Assembly (NCBI RefSeq): GCF_030372065.1
Contig: NZ_JAUDEA010000008.1
Coordinates: 1 to 64,000 of the forward strand
Length of the DNA stretch: 64,000 nt
DNA from: Thermophilibacter provencensis
Lineage (GTDB): Bacteria > Actinomycetota > Coriobacteriia > Coriobacteriales > Atopobiaceae
Reading direction: 5' to 3'
Made by a program: the position numbers and the translations under genes
Notes under the pieces: generated by a model
Told to the model about the DNA's origin: nothing
What the model saw: only the letters and a program-made list of their open reading frames with translations
Databases searched by the model: none
Shown: piece by piece, positions 6,081 through 63,937 of the stretch
How positions within the stretch are numbered: position 1 is the first letter of the stretch
How the letters are laid out: every line of letters starts with the position of its first letter

Positions 6081-6266
6081 GGTTTTGGGCAACATCTTTT
6101 ATATCCGTTTTGCGAGAAGGACCGGCGAGGGCACACATTTCCCGGATTCAGCCTGTTGTGGGCAACACCTTTGATGCGCAGGCGAGAAGGACCATCAAAG
6201 GTGTTGCCCAATTCTTCCTCAAACGTGCGGGGTCCCCAGAGCCCATCAAAAATGTTGCCCAAAACC
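6081..6266. repeat. Nested GGGCAACA inverted repeats
   Basis: An outer pair, GGTTTTGGGCAACAT at 6081-6095 and its complement ending at 6266, encloses an inner perfect 17-bp stem (GGGCAACACCTTTGATG, 6160-6176 and 6193-6209). The inner loop contains GGCGAGAAGGAC. Matching facing pairs occur at 17405-17536 and 25517-25663. No gene is visible in the 420 bases between 5922 and 6344. Confidence 0.8.
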
Positions 6267-16495: not shown

Positions 16496-17266
16496 CTACC
16501 GGCACAGCTCGGAGAGGGCCACGCGCACGGCCTCGTCCTCGTCGTCGGTCATGACCACGAGCTCCGGGTCGAGCGGCGAGATGTTGCCCGCCTCGCGCAC
16601 CGTGCCCTCGAGCCAGTCCATGAGGCCCTGCCAGTACTCGGTGCCAAAGAGCACCACCGGCGTGCGCGCCACCTTGTGCGTCTGCACGAGGGTGAGCAGC
16701 TCGAAGGCCTCGTCGAGCGTGCCAAAGCCGCCCGGGAAGATGATGGCGCCGCTCGAGTACTTGACGAACATCGTCTTGCGCACAAAGAAGTAGCGGAAGG
16801 TGATGCCGAGGTTGACCCACTTGTTGATGCCCTGCTCGTGCGGGAGCTCGATCCCCAGGCCCACGGACTTGCCGCCGGCCTTGGCCGCGCCGCAGTTGGC
16901 GGCCTCCATGATGCCGGGACCGCCGCCCGTAATCACGGCCACGCCCTGCTCGGCCAGCTTACGACCCACGTGACGGGCGGCGCGATACATCGGGTCCGTG
17001 CGCGACGTGCGCGCCGACCCAAAGACGGTCACGGCCGGGCCCAGCTCCGCAAGCGCGCCAAAGCCATCGACAAACTCCGCCTGGATGCGCAGGACGCGCC
17101 ACGGGTCCATGTGCAGCCAGTCGGTGTCGGACTCCGGTTCCAGCAGGTTGGTCGTGGTGGTCTTCTCGGGGATCATCGGCCCACGCATGATGACGGGGCC
17201 GCGATGGTAGGTCTGACCGAGCGGGTCCTCGTCGTGATGGACCGCCGGGCTCTTCTCGTCTGCCAT
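16496..17266 (-). CDS. LOG-family protein (nucleotide 5'-monophosphate phosphoribohydrolase type)
   Basis: The 256-residue protein carries the LOG signatures GGGPGIMEAANCGA and PGGFGTLDEAFE in a Rossmann-like fold. Family members hydrolyse cytokinin riboside monophosphates or other nucleoside monophosphates to free base. Residues 1-60 are a charged extension beyond the core. The gene is convergent with the HPr-like gene, 15 bases apart. The start follows GGAGAAAAC. Confidence 0.85.
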   Translation of the reverse strand: MADEKSPAVHHDEDPLGQTYHRGPVIMRGPMIPEKTTTTNLLEPESDTDWLHMDPWRVLRIQAEFVDGFGALAELGPAVTVFGSARTSRTDPMYRAARHVGRKLAEQGVAVITGGGPGIMEAANCGAAKAGGKSVGLGIELPHEQGINKWVNLGITFRYFFVRKTMFVKYSSGAIIFPGGFGTLDEAFELLTLVQTHKVARTPVVLFGTEYWQGLMDWLEGTVREAGNISPLDPELVVMTDDEDEAVRVALSELCR

Positions 17267-17404
17267 GTTTTCTCCTTCTGACGGAAGGATTACGTTACGC
17301 CCGCCACGTCAGAGACGGGTAAGGGGCGCCATATGCTTTGTGTACCCATTTCCCGCGGCGGTTCGCGCGACGGCACGGGTGCCGAGCTTTGTCGCCTTCA
17401 GGCA

Positions 17405-17536
17405 GTTTTTGGGCAAATGTTTTATATGACGGAAAACAAAAGTCTGTGTTTCTAGCAAGACGGCGAGAAGAGCGCACGTTTGGGGAAGTTTTGCTCGCCC
17501 AAGAGTGACGCGATATCAAAAATGTTGCCCAAAACC
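17405..17536. repeat. GGGCAACA facing pair
   Basis: GTTTTTGGGCAAATGTTTTA at 17405 faces ATATCAAAAATGTTGCCC at 17514, with about 85 bases between that include GGCGAGAAGAG. It directly precedes the 29-bp array. Confidence 0.75.
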
Positions 17537-17550
17537 AGGGTGAACGCCCC

Positions 17551-17921
17551 GTGCCGAGAAAAGCCCGGGTCTGTACCACACAAGAGAGGCCGTGCCGAGA
17601 AAAGCCTGGGTCTGTACCACCTTCTGGAAATCGTGCCGAGAAAGTTGGTCCTCTGTACCAAGCAGCTCACACTCATGCCGAGAATACCGGCCGGCTGTAC
17701 CAGTGCATGTGAAGGGGTGCCGAGAGAATCATCCCGCTGTACCACTTATGCCGAGAAAAAAGCGTCCCTGTACCACTTGGTTGGTCGCGGGGATGAAGTG
17801 GAGAAGTATGCCCGGTACAGTCTCGCGATTTTCTCGGCGCGAATTCTGGAAAGCGGTACAGAGGGTGGATATTCTCGGCACGAGCCCCACCCGGCGGCAC
17901 GGCCGGCCGCTATTCTCGGCA
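17551..17921. repeat. Array of 29-bp GCCGAGAAAA-N8-CTGTACCA units
   Basis: Six units run in plus orientation (starts 17551, 17592, 17633, 17675, 17717, 17748), then two run in reverse (ending near 17838 and 17881) plus a reverse half unit at 17911-17921. Each unit is GTGCCGAGAAAA, eight variable bases, CTGTACCAC; spacing is mostly 12-14 bases. A second array of the same units is at 27345-27635. No gene is visible in 17267-17938. Confidence 0.92.
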
Positions 17922-17938
17922 TATCGCCGTGCGCGCGC

Positions 17939-20293
17939 CTACCCCAGACCGAGCGCCATGCCCACGAGGCGCACCACCAGCGCCACGACCCACGCCACGC
18001 CGCACTGCATGGCAACCACAGCCCACATCATGCGCGTGCCCAGCTCGGCCTTGACGGCCGAGACCGCAGCCACGCACGGCGTGTAGAGCAGCGTGAACGT
18101 CAGGAACGCAAACGCCGTGAGCGGCGAGAAGAGCTCCGGCAGCCCCGCCGTGGACCCGCCCATGAGGACGGTCAGCGTGGCCACCACGTTCTCCTTGGCG
18201 CCAAAGCCGGCCGCCAGGGCCGCCGCCGCGCGCCAGTTGCCAAAGCCGAGCGGCACAAAGAGCGGGGCCAGCAGCGCGCCGAGCGCCGCGAGCATGCTCG
18301 CGGACTGGTCGGAGACCACGTTGAGGCGTACGTCAAAGGTCTGCAGGAACCAGATCACCACGCTCGCCACAAAGATGATCGTGAACGCCTTGGTTGCAAA
18401 GCCCTTGGCCTTGTCCCAGGCAAGGCGCGCCACGGTGCGCGGCGCGGGCATGCGGTAGTTGGGGAGCTCCATCACAAACGGCACCGGGTCGCCCTTGAAG
18501 GCCGTCCCCTTGAGCACCAGTGCCACGAGGATGCCCACCACGATGCCCATGAGGTAGAGCGCAATAGTTACGAGCGGCGCGCACTCCGGGAAGAACGCCG
18601 CCGAGAAGAGCGCGTAGACCGGCACCTTGGCCGAGCAGCTCATGAACGGCGTGAGCATGACCGTCATCTTGCGGTCGTGCTCGGAGGGCAGGGTGCGCGT
18701 GGCCATGATGGCGGGCACGCTGCAGCCAAAGCCGATGAGCATGGGCACGAAGCTGCGGCCGGAGAGGCCCAGGCGCCGCAGCAGCTTGTCCATCACAAAG
18801 GCCACGCGCGCCATGTAGCCGGAGTCCTCGAGGATGGAGAGCAGGATGAAGAGCACCACGATGATCGGCAGGAAGGAGAGCACGCTGCCCACGCCGGCAA
18901 AGACGCCGTCTATGACCAGGCTGTGCACCACGGGGTTGAGCCCAAAGGCCGTGAGCGCGGCGTCAACCTGCGCCGTCACCCAGTCAATGCCCAGGGCGAG
19001 AAGGTCTGAGAGCCGCTGACCCACCACGTCAAAGGTGAGCCAGAAGACGAGCGCCATGATTCCGATGAAGACGGGAATGGCCGTGTACTTGCCCGTGAGG
19101 ATGCGGTCGGCCGCCACCGAGCGCGCGTGCTCGCGGCTCTCGTGCGGCTTGACCACGCACTCGGCGCACACGCCCTCGATGAACGAGAAGCGCATGTCGG
19201 CGAGGGCGGCCATGCGGTCGCGCCCGCTCTCCCCCTCCATCTGGCAGATGATGTGCTCCACGGCGTCGAGCTCGTTTTGATCGAGCCCGAGGGCGCGCAC
19301 GACGAGAACGTCGCCCTCGATGAGCTTGGTTGCCGCAAAGCGCACGGGGAGGCTCGCCGCCGCGGCGTGGTCCTCGATGATGTGGCAGATGCCGTGGATG
19401 CAGCGGTGCAGGGCGCCGTGGTCAGGGCCGTCCGCCGCGCAGAAGTCCACGCGCCCGGGGTGCTCGCGGAAGCGCGCCACGTGCAGCACGTGCTCAACGA
19501 GCTCTGAGATGCCCTCCTCGCGCGCCGCGGAGATGGGCACCACGGGGATGCCGAGCGCGGCCTCCAGGCGGTTCACGCTCACCGTGCCGCCGTTGGCCGT
19601 GAGCTCGTCCATCATGTTGAGCGCAAGGACCATCGGCCGGTCGAGCTCCATGAGCTGGAGCGTCAGGTAGAGGTTGCGCTCGATGTTGGTTGCGTCCACG
19701 ATGTCGATGATCGCGTCCGGGTTGTCCTCGAGGATGAAGCGGCGCGAGACCACCTCCTCGCTCGTGTACGGGGAGAGCGAGTAGATGCCCGGCAGGTCCG
19801 TGACCGTGGCCTCGGGGTGGCCCTTGATCTGGCCGTCCTTGCGGTCCACCGTGACGCCCGGGAAGTTGCCCACGTGCTGGTTGGAGCCCGTGAGCGCGTT
19901 GAAGAGCGTGGTCTTGCCGCAGTTCTGGTTGCCGGCCAGGGCCAGGGTGAGGGGACGACCCTCCGGGATGGCCTTGCCGGCGGCGCGGGGCGCGTACTTC
20001 TCGCCAATGGCGGGGTGGTCTGAGGCCTCCAGGCGCTCGATCCCGCGCGGGGCGTCGTGCATGTCGTGCACCTGCGTGAGCGCGATGTGCGCGGCGTCAT
20101 CGCGGCGCAACGTGAGCTCGTAGCCACGCAGGCGGATCTCCAGCGGGTCGCCCATGGGGGCGCGCTTCATGAGCGTGACCTCCACGCCGGGCGTGAGGCC
20201 CATGTCCAGTATGTGCTGGCGCAGGGACGCCTCGTCGCAGTCAACCGACGCAACGATCGCGTCCTTGCCTATCTCAAGCTCGTCAAGGTTCAT
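17939..20293 (-). CDS. feoB: FeoA-FeoB fusion, ferrous iron transporter
   Basis: The 784-residue protein joins a FeoA SH3-like domain (about 1-75, with DMGLTPGVEVTLMKRAPMGD) to a complete FeoB: G1 GNQNCGKTT, DLPGIYSLSPYT, G4 NMMD, then a polytopic membrane domain with two gate repeats. FeoB imports Fe(II) and depends on its GTPase domain. The ATG at 20293 follows GAGAGGGCCGC. A second, unfused feoA-feoA-feoB set lies at 45.4-48.8 kb. No GTTAG-N6-CTAAC box is seen upstream, so control may differ. Confidence 0.92.
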   Translation of the reverse strand: MNLDELEIGKDAIVASVDCDEASLRQHILDMGLTPGVEVTLMKRAPMGDPLEIRLRGYELTLRRDDAAHIALTQVHDMHDAPRGIERLEASDHPAIGEKYAPRAAGKAIPEGRPLTLALAGNQNCGKTTLFNALTGSNQHVGNFPGVTVDRKDGQIKGHPEATVTDLPGIYSLSPYTSEEVVSRRFILEDNPDAIIDIVDATNIERNLYLTLQLMELDRPMVLALNMMDELTANGGTVSVNRLEAALGIPVVPISAAREEGISELVEHVLHVARFREHPGRVDFCAADGPDHGALHRCIHGICHIIEDHAAAASLPVRFAATKLIEGDVLVVRALGLDQNELDAVEHIICQMEGESGRDRMAALADMRFSFIEGVCAECVVKPHESREHARSVAADRILTGKYTAIPVFIGIMALVFWLTFDVVGQRLSDLLALGIDWVTAQVDAALTAFGLNPVVHSLVIDGVFAGVGSVLSFLPIIVVLFILLSILEDSGYMARVAFVMDKLLRRLGLSGRSFVPMLIGFGCSVPAIMATRTLPSEHDRKMTVMLTPFMSCSAKVPVYALFSAAFFPECAPLVTIALYLMGIVVGILVALVLKGTAFKGDPVPFVMELPNYRMPAPRTVARLAWDKAKGFATKAFTIIFVASVVIWFLQTFDVRLNVVSDQSASMLAALGALLAPLFVPLGFGNWRAAAALAAGFGAKENVVATLTVLMGGSTAGLPELFSPLTAFAFLTFTLLYTPCVAAVSAVKAELGTRMMWAVVAMQCGVAWVVALVVRLVGMALGLG

Positions 20294-20352
20294 GCGGCCC
20301 TCTCTCATTGCTCCGTCCGGAGGCAATTGTAGCGTGAGGGCCCGCGGCAAAG

Positions 20353-27344: not shown

Positions 27345-27635
27345 GTGCCGACGAGAAATATCGGCCTCCGTACCACTTTCTCAAGACCGTGGCGAGAAAA
27401 TCAGGGGGCTGTACCACGCGCTTCGATGGGGTGCCGAGAAATACCGGCCCCTGTACCCGCCACCGCACTTCTCGCCGATAAAACCCGCCCTCTGTACCAG
27501 CATTGATCCGAATGCGGACCATCGGTTGGTACAGGGGGACGCTTTTCTCGGCAGGTCTTCGGACATCTGGTACAGCCCCGAGGTTTTCTCGGCGCTCATT
27601 TTGGAATCTGGTACAGAGGCGCGGTTTTCTCGGCC
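27345..27635. repeat. Second array of GCCGAGAAAA-N8-CTGTACCA units
   Basis: Four plus-oriented units (starting near 27345, 27389, 27431 and 27474) are followed by three reversed units (27527-27553, 27568-27594, 27609-27635). The first carries a 3-base insertion and the fourth is diverged. The array lies between htrA and the response-regulator gene, matching the placement of the 17.5-kb array downstream of one minus-strand gene and upstream of another. Confidence 0.9.
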
Positions 27636-27644
27636 CGCAGACGA

Positions 27645-63628: not shown

Positions 63629-63937
63629 ATGGGAAAGAAGGCTGCCGAGGCTCTCGACATCAACTACGAGGGTCTGGTCGAGTACCTGCACTGCAATCAC
63701 TCCGTCTACATGAAGATCGGCTCGTCCGTCTATTACCTCACCGACTGCAACTTTGAGTCCTGGCGCGCACAGGACACGAGCCGCCGCAACGAGAAGAACC
63801 ACTTTGTCGACTGCTCCGAGCTCGTCCCCACTGTTGACGAGTTCCTCGCGCTCCCCTTTGTCAACGGCAAGACCATCCAGGACGTCTTTGACCACGCCAC
63901 GTTCTACGCCTCCCTCTCCGGCGAGAAGGACGAGTAG
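63629..63937 (+). CDS. Hypothetical small protein
   Basis: The 102-residue soluble protein (MGKKAAEALDINYEGLVEYL at the start) has mixed alpha/beta composition, with aromatic-rich YMKIGSSVYYLTDCNFESW in the middle. I do not recognise the family. GAAAGGGGATCGCC precedes the ATG and a TATAGT -10-like box lies at 63582. It is followed by a strong terminator, so it is a separate transcript. Confidence 0.75.
   Translation: MGKKAAEALDINYEGLVEYLHCNHSVYMKIGSSVYYLTDCNFESWRAQDTSRRNEKNHFVDCSELVPTVDEFLALPFVNGKTIQDVFDHATFYASLSGEKDE

Follow-up and report, generated by a model that had tools for sequence, protein, structure and literature searches.

Facing arrays of 29-bp bipartite units, held in helical phase between genes in one clade of Atopobiaceae, as putative sites for a cooperative DNA-binding protein

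Introduction

What purpose might be served by a row of similar 29-bp units that changes strand half-way along the gap between two genes? The question is raised by a locus of Thermophilibacter provencensis (contig NZ_JAUDEA010000008.1), located in the 64,000-nucleotide stretch analysed here and referred to as the window. An earlier note, made from the letters of this stretch alone, had described an array of such units and had proposed either a binding site with two half-sites or a structured RNA. The array was found to be real and to consist of nine units (17551-17922), six on the plus strand followed by three on the minus strand. We report here that it belongs to a large set of dispersed, clade-specific arrays, probably sites for a cooperative DNA-binding protein that would form helically ordered complexes.

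Results and discussion

In order to define the unit and its arrangement, we pooled 75 arrays of at least two units (582 units in total, single matches being left out) from five genomes: 32 arrays from G000, the genome of the window, 21 from G105, 20 from G108 and one each from G109 and G092. The consensus, RYGCCGAGAAAA-NC-N6-CTGTACCR, comprises two conserved blocks flanking variable bases. The conserved ends described in the earlier note were borne out, being 0.86-0.87 identical between arrays, while the middle eight bases (N8) that it had taken to be variable proved constrained in part, position 13 (counted from 0) being C in 87% and position 15 being G in 73% of the units. All 71 two-armed arrays showed plus units followed by minus units.

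The spacing of the units follows the DNA helix. Same-strand spacings were 41 or 42 bp in 357 of 436 cases (82%), and the best-fitting period was 10.55 bp within arms and 10.45 bp across the centre. Among the 51 spacings away from multiples of 41.6 bp, 45 deviated from whole helical turns by no more than 1.5 bp (14.6 expected). The distance across the centre was in phase in 67/71 arrays, and in 33/37 when the commonest class (53-55 bp) was set aside. The spacers of 41-bp steps were AT-rich (52% AT) and those of 42-bp steps GC-rich (32% AT; p 2e-21), which suggests that angular register, not length, is what is maintained. A short step of 31/32 bp occurred 20 times; in 18 of these it was the innermost step of one arm, that of the other arm being longer, and the remaining two were found in a one-armed array (L068) and as the second step of another (L083). 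We read spacing, phase and spacer composition together as the B-DNA signature of proteins standing side by side on one helix face. The structure itself, bipartite sites in facing arrays held in helical phase, is well supported, and the two conserved blocks around drifting bases, set at whole-turn spacing, argue for the half-site reading put forward earlier.

The genome of the window, G000 (2.23 Mb in 35 contigs), contained 242 units at up to three mismatches, against 2 for the reversed control pattern. Of these, 214 lay within 32 retrieved arrays of at least two units, about 80-500 bp long and with up to 12 units each; we estimate about 35 arrays for the whole genome. The retrieved units formed 34 clusters, two being single units, of which one (score 18.1) was within a coding region. 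All 32 clusters of at least two units lay between predicted genes, as placed by a simple gene caller, and two gaps of more than 1.5 kb may hide genes. The arrays frequently adjoin stop codons (0-40 bp). Adjacent units resembled each other slightly more than units drawn from different arrays did (N8 identity 0.506 vs 0.441); despite this likeness, recent local duplication was rejected as the sole origin.

The distribution of the unit is narrow. In the contig collection, exact matches were found in 52 stretches, 40 from Olsenella (20 from bin SI.B29, 18 from T11 bin.2, one each from SI.A9 and O. pullicola; from their coordinates, these four sources were taken to be G105, G108, G109 and G092, respectively) and 12 single matches in unrelated taxa; viral contigs gave no exact match. 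At up to one mismatch, 16 of the 395 genomes of the order contained a match: 135 in G000, 122 in G105, 100 in G108, 6 in G092, 4 in G109, 3 in G144 and one in each of ten others. At up to three mismatches, G105 reached 365 and G108 346 units, and most of the genus remained at background level. Neither absence from related genomes nor a single local duplication, the two outcomes that the earlier note had named against itself, was thus observed. The G144 match, in another family, lies on a 3.2-kb contig (L142, G144:C133) that is probably binning contamination, since, by eye, the genes on both sides look like the ones that flank the G000 array L061. The four G109 matches all fell on a single contig (G109:C105), which is probably contamination too.

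The same geometry was found with other sequences. We sampled about 508 kb of G087, some stretches having been picked for known sites of family A', a variant of the window unit that ends in GTGTACCGGT (7 arrays). Three further families unrelated in sequence to the window unit were identified there: family B, GGGTTAgAA..TCGTCCCC (7 arrays, 41-bp steps, centre distance always 45 bp); family C, CGTCCCgGAAtcGgcG..gTTC (7 arrays, mostly 41-bp steps, centre always 43 bp, innermost 31-bp step in two arrays); and family D, GCTTAnGAA..GGGGTaGTTG (3 arrays, mostly 42-bp steps). None of the 24 arrays of these four families violated the plus-then-minus order, and reversed controls gave none. At up to three mismatches, family C was counted 47 times in G087, 31 in G098, once each in G000 and G096, and not at all in the other 27 genomes. 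In G087, 20 of 183 intergenic gaps matched themselves at an offset of 41/42 bp. Among 30 gaps examined 3' of FeoB genes, those of G000, G105 and G108 held repeats of family A, and those of G110, G099, G095 and G085 held strong direct repeats of other sequence at 41/42/62/82/84 bp; some others repeated at unrelated offsets (e.g. 29 in G097, 34 in G103, 43/27 in G089). Different sequence families with one geometry point to related proteins of different specificity.

A second periodicity of 61/122 bp was also seen in intergenic repeats of G097 (L131-L133), G089 (L134-L135) and G095 (L211-L216). The gap between the FeoB and LOG genes of G097 (L131:9135-9377) holds a long palindrome of two plus and two minus units with a 29-bp step.

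Arrays have been lost or reduced in a sister species. A single-gene FeoB tree places G092 as the sister of G000 (100/100), and 18 of the 32 G000 arrays could be compared, both flanking genes being on one retrieved G092 contig (the other 14 were not comparable). At these 18 sites G000 has 119 units and G092 has 4 recognisable ones; G092 has fewer at 18/18, with none at 15 and a reduced number at 3. As contigs may break at arrays, the 18-site sample leans towards lost arrays, and G092 keeps some at contig ends. We aligned 14 of the 18 sites and, at a few of them (arrays 0, 20, 21 and 27), read what is left as remnants, in the form of half units or hybrids. The apparent hybrid, at array 21, joins the outer portion of one plus unit with the inner portion of a second, a pattern that suggests loss by recombination between units. 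At the FeoB site, the spacers of G000 and G105 are 0.74 identical; because these two genomes share them, the array there would predate the loss in G092 if the tree holds. Loss of units leaving hybrid and half remnants is what would be expected had a trans-acting factor been lost.

Proposed model

We propose that each array is a set of sites for a putative sequence-specific DNA-binding protein. One unit would take one protein, or one fixed complex, through its two recognition blocks. Since the spacings are whole turns, neighbouring proteins would sit on one helix face, touching head to tail along an arm, and the two arms would face each other at the array centre. The product, lying in an intergenic gap, would be a nucleoprotein complex with helical order, about 80-500 bp in length. 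Its most likely job would be local chromosome architecture or the insulation of neighbouring genes. More tentatively, and somewhat less likely than the contrary, the arrays may constitute an unnamed class of bacterial chromosome element, each family being read by its own member of a fast-changing family of DNA-binding proteins; species would switch families while the geometry is kept, and loss of the protein would lead to genome-wide erosion of arrays, as in G092.

Several results weigh against this model. No binding protein was found, and the counts of RAYT, rve and integrase domains do not track the arrays. The gene contexts of the 34 G000 clusters (13 --, 10 -+, 6 ++ and 5 +-) resemble those of gaps longer than 200 bp in the same stretches (30, 22, 12 and 8, compared without a formal test), and the neighbours, judged by eye from protein starts, are housekeeping-like and have no functional theme. 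An origin/terminus organisation was rejected, no significant bias being found (Kolmogorov-Smirnov p 0.08) when array neighbours were placed on the complete genome G111, in which dnaA was located and whose gene order stands in for that of G000 (29 of 30 array positions mapped; two neighbours with two places each set midway). At several sites (e.g. 16, 18 and 24) nothing recognisable is left in G092, and gain in G000 fits equally. Gaps with a 41/42-bp self-match are rare elsewhere (G111 0/35, G091 0/49, G097 1/23, G089 1/16, G099 1/77, G095 1/52, and G110 2/15, where the control offsets 36/37 and 46/47 gave 0-1), and the claim of a genus-wide occurrence was narrowed for this reason. Conservation is equivocal as well: in 11 array pairs sharing both flanks the half-sites were 0.866/0.857 identical, N8 0.529 and the spacers 0.585, and in non-orthologous arrays the values were 0.858/0.856, 0.495 and 0.536. 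Half-sites equally alike between non-orthologous arrays do not separate in-place purifying selection from repeated regrowth, and half-site conservation as proof of selection was withdrawn after this control. Lastly, fast turnover and dispensability in G092 suit selfish DNA as well.

Alternative explanations

Selfish dispersed DNA is the main rival to architecture or insulation, although we consider it unlikely. The arrays would be non-autonomous repeats that a transposase-like protein binds and spreads, and their two arms would correspond to the ends of a cargo-free element. Several families per genome, their species specificity, intergenic position and quick loss would fit, and the facing arms are reminiscent of Tn7/Mu-type transposons, whose ends hold several TnsB sites (PMC9371665). 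The marks of transposition that were looked for were not seen, however: 2 of 64 arrays (4.9 expected) had a 6-bp direct repeat no more than 12 bp from each end, so that there is no excess of target-site duplication, and the ten best-scoring matches of G000 arrays of at least three units included no copy of a whole array (the top match had 82% identity over 116 bp, and no longer one exceeded 72%). As for a reader, a RAYT domain occurs in 28 of 31 genomes, and rve and tyrosine recombinase domains in 9/9 genomes tested; the three domains as such were rejected as array readers, as they occur with or without arrays (31, 9 and 9 genomes), and a specific RAYT, rve or recombinase subfamily may yet serve as reader. 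G000 has three RAYT domains and the array-poor G092 two; the nearest unit to the one in L079 is about 2.8 kb off, and the other two in G000 have no unit within 8 kb among the matches listed.

A stretch of G087 with a partial RAYT-domain match (L130:18884-19765, positions 7-84 of 121) ends with GTGCAAAAG..CACTTTTGCAC repeats. These repeats, unlike the array units, are perhaps the repetitive extragenic palindromes (REPs) of the genus.

It is improbable that the arrays are operators through which a global transcription regulator controls the flanking promoters. In 29/34 clusters one or both neighbouring genes start towards the array, and ten clusters lie between divergent genes, but five lie between convergent ones, and neither the background-like contexts nor the themeless neighbours described above favour regulation.

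That the arrays are transcribed as a ladder hairpin or act as bidirectional terminators, the structured RNA of the earlier note, is very hard to believe: the transcript of array 1 can fold (z -7.1), as the inverted layout would have it do anyway, and the similarity of mirror N8 pairs further out than the innermost is slightly above chance (0.512 vs 0.441), but arm sizes are unequal and nearly independent (r 0.13), the arms are out of register (0.517 vs 0.531 +- 0.045 for arms re-paired between arrays; 65 arrays with at least two units per arm), the N8s of innermost plus/minus pairs match each other no better than those taken from different arrays (0.423 vs 0.441), a 10.5-bp period and AT/GC compensation are characteristic of B-DNA, and Rfam gave no match at 17200-18000 of the window up to E 1. 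The RNA ladder was rejected on the arm register and the unmatched innermost N8s.

Comparison with known systems

REPs and bacterial interspersed mosaic elements (BIMEs), with their RAYT transposases, are, as described in PMC2817692, hundreds of short repeats in species-specific families for which protein binding and a role in chromosome organisation have been proposed. The arrays are likewise made of hundreds of short repeats in species-specific families. They differ in that their units are non-palindromic, with a match to their own reverse complement of 12.42/29 (12.36 when shuffled) and a fold energy of -4.42 (-5.16 when shuffled; 582 units in both cases), in that orientation is blockwise, plus then minus, instead of alternating (minus before plus in 0/71 two-armed arrays), and in their helically phased spacing.

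Iteron arrays of plasmid and chromosome initiators are asymmetric sites in helical register that are bound cooperatively. The arrays share their direct repeats in helical register, but have two facing arms and are dispersed over dozens of loci, not confined to one origin; the 34 clusters have diverse neighbours, with no initiator-like gene seen by eye.

Transposon ends of the Tn7/Mu type (TnsB/MuA sites) also carry several sites per end, in opposite orientation at the two ends. The arrays differ from them in lacking cargo and an excess of target duplication, in having up to 12 units (G000) and in their regular 41.5-bp spacing; the TnsB sites of ShCAST are 22 bp long and unevenly spaced, as given in PMC9371665. 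Near-identical copies at several loci, as in transposons or miniature inverted-repeat transposable elements, were not seen among the ten best matches of G000 arrays of at least three units.

Convergent CTCF sites of animal genomes are asymmetric sites that face each other between genes. The likeness is one of analogy only, the organisms being unrelated.

We call this kind of element new because none of the definitions considered (REP/BIME, iteron, transposon end and RNA) agrees with all of the features tested and no description was found in the open-access literature searched. The view of the earlier note that no named element has this sequence was not contradicted: the open-access literature searched held no description of the array element, and among the matches listed for the 10-mer GCCGAGAAAA the titles were off subject. 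The clade offers dozens of clean examples with helical quantisation, fixed convergence and several unrelated sequences, which fit no family tested. If the protein model holds, a bacterial architectural or insulator protein would be directly findable, since the bait DNA is known and nature provides a control in the array-poor sister species. Should the selfish reading prove right, the arrays would represent a novel type of repeat, and their geometry would betray the machine reading them.

Arrays and neighbouring genes in the window

At up to three mismatches the window contains 15 matches (0.04 expected), 8 in array 1 and 7 in a second array (27348-27636, seven units) that the earlier note had not listed (Table 1). 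The degenerate unit of array 1 scored 24.1 bits and the other eight 32.0-40.8. We take the left neighbour of array 1 to be a LOG/TIGR00730-like gene and the right one, presumably, to be FeoB-like.

Table 1 Arrays of the window and genes flanking array 1
Feature	Coordinates	Strand	Details
Left neighbour gene of array 1	16496..17266	-	predicted gene
Array 1 plus arm	17551..17776	+	six 29-bp units: 17551, 17592, 17633, 17675, 17717, 17748; spacings 41, 41, 42, 42, 31
Array 1 centre	17777..17811		64 bp between the starts of the last plus and the first minus unit; a helical turn off the commonest value, 54
Array 1 minus arm	17812..17922	-	three units: 17812, 17853, 17894; spacings 41, 41; last degenerate
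Right neighbour gene of array 1	17939..20308	-	predicted gene; stop codon 16 bp from array
Array 2 plus arm	27348..27500	+	four units: 27348, 27389, 27431, 27472
Array 2 minus arm	27526..27636	-	three units: 27526, 27567, 27608; centre distance 54

Array 1 is adjoined by an inverted pair (17394-17423 / 17518-17547) whose arms are 73% complementary and contain TTTGGGCAAA / TTGCCCAAAA; a similar single pair was noticed by eye in the same gap of G107. A further motif, GGCGAGAAGRRC, occurs 17 times in the window (0.11 expected), for example at 17462-17473, 6181-6192 and 63920-63931. In five other Olsenella sampled, the core of this motif is frequent in intergenic DNA, in many cases, as judged by eye, immediately 3' of a -10-like box, and the motif is also present within some array spacers of G087. 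It has CGAGAA in common with the first block of the array unit.
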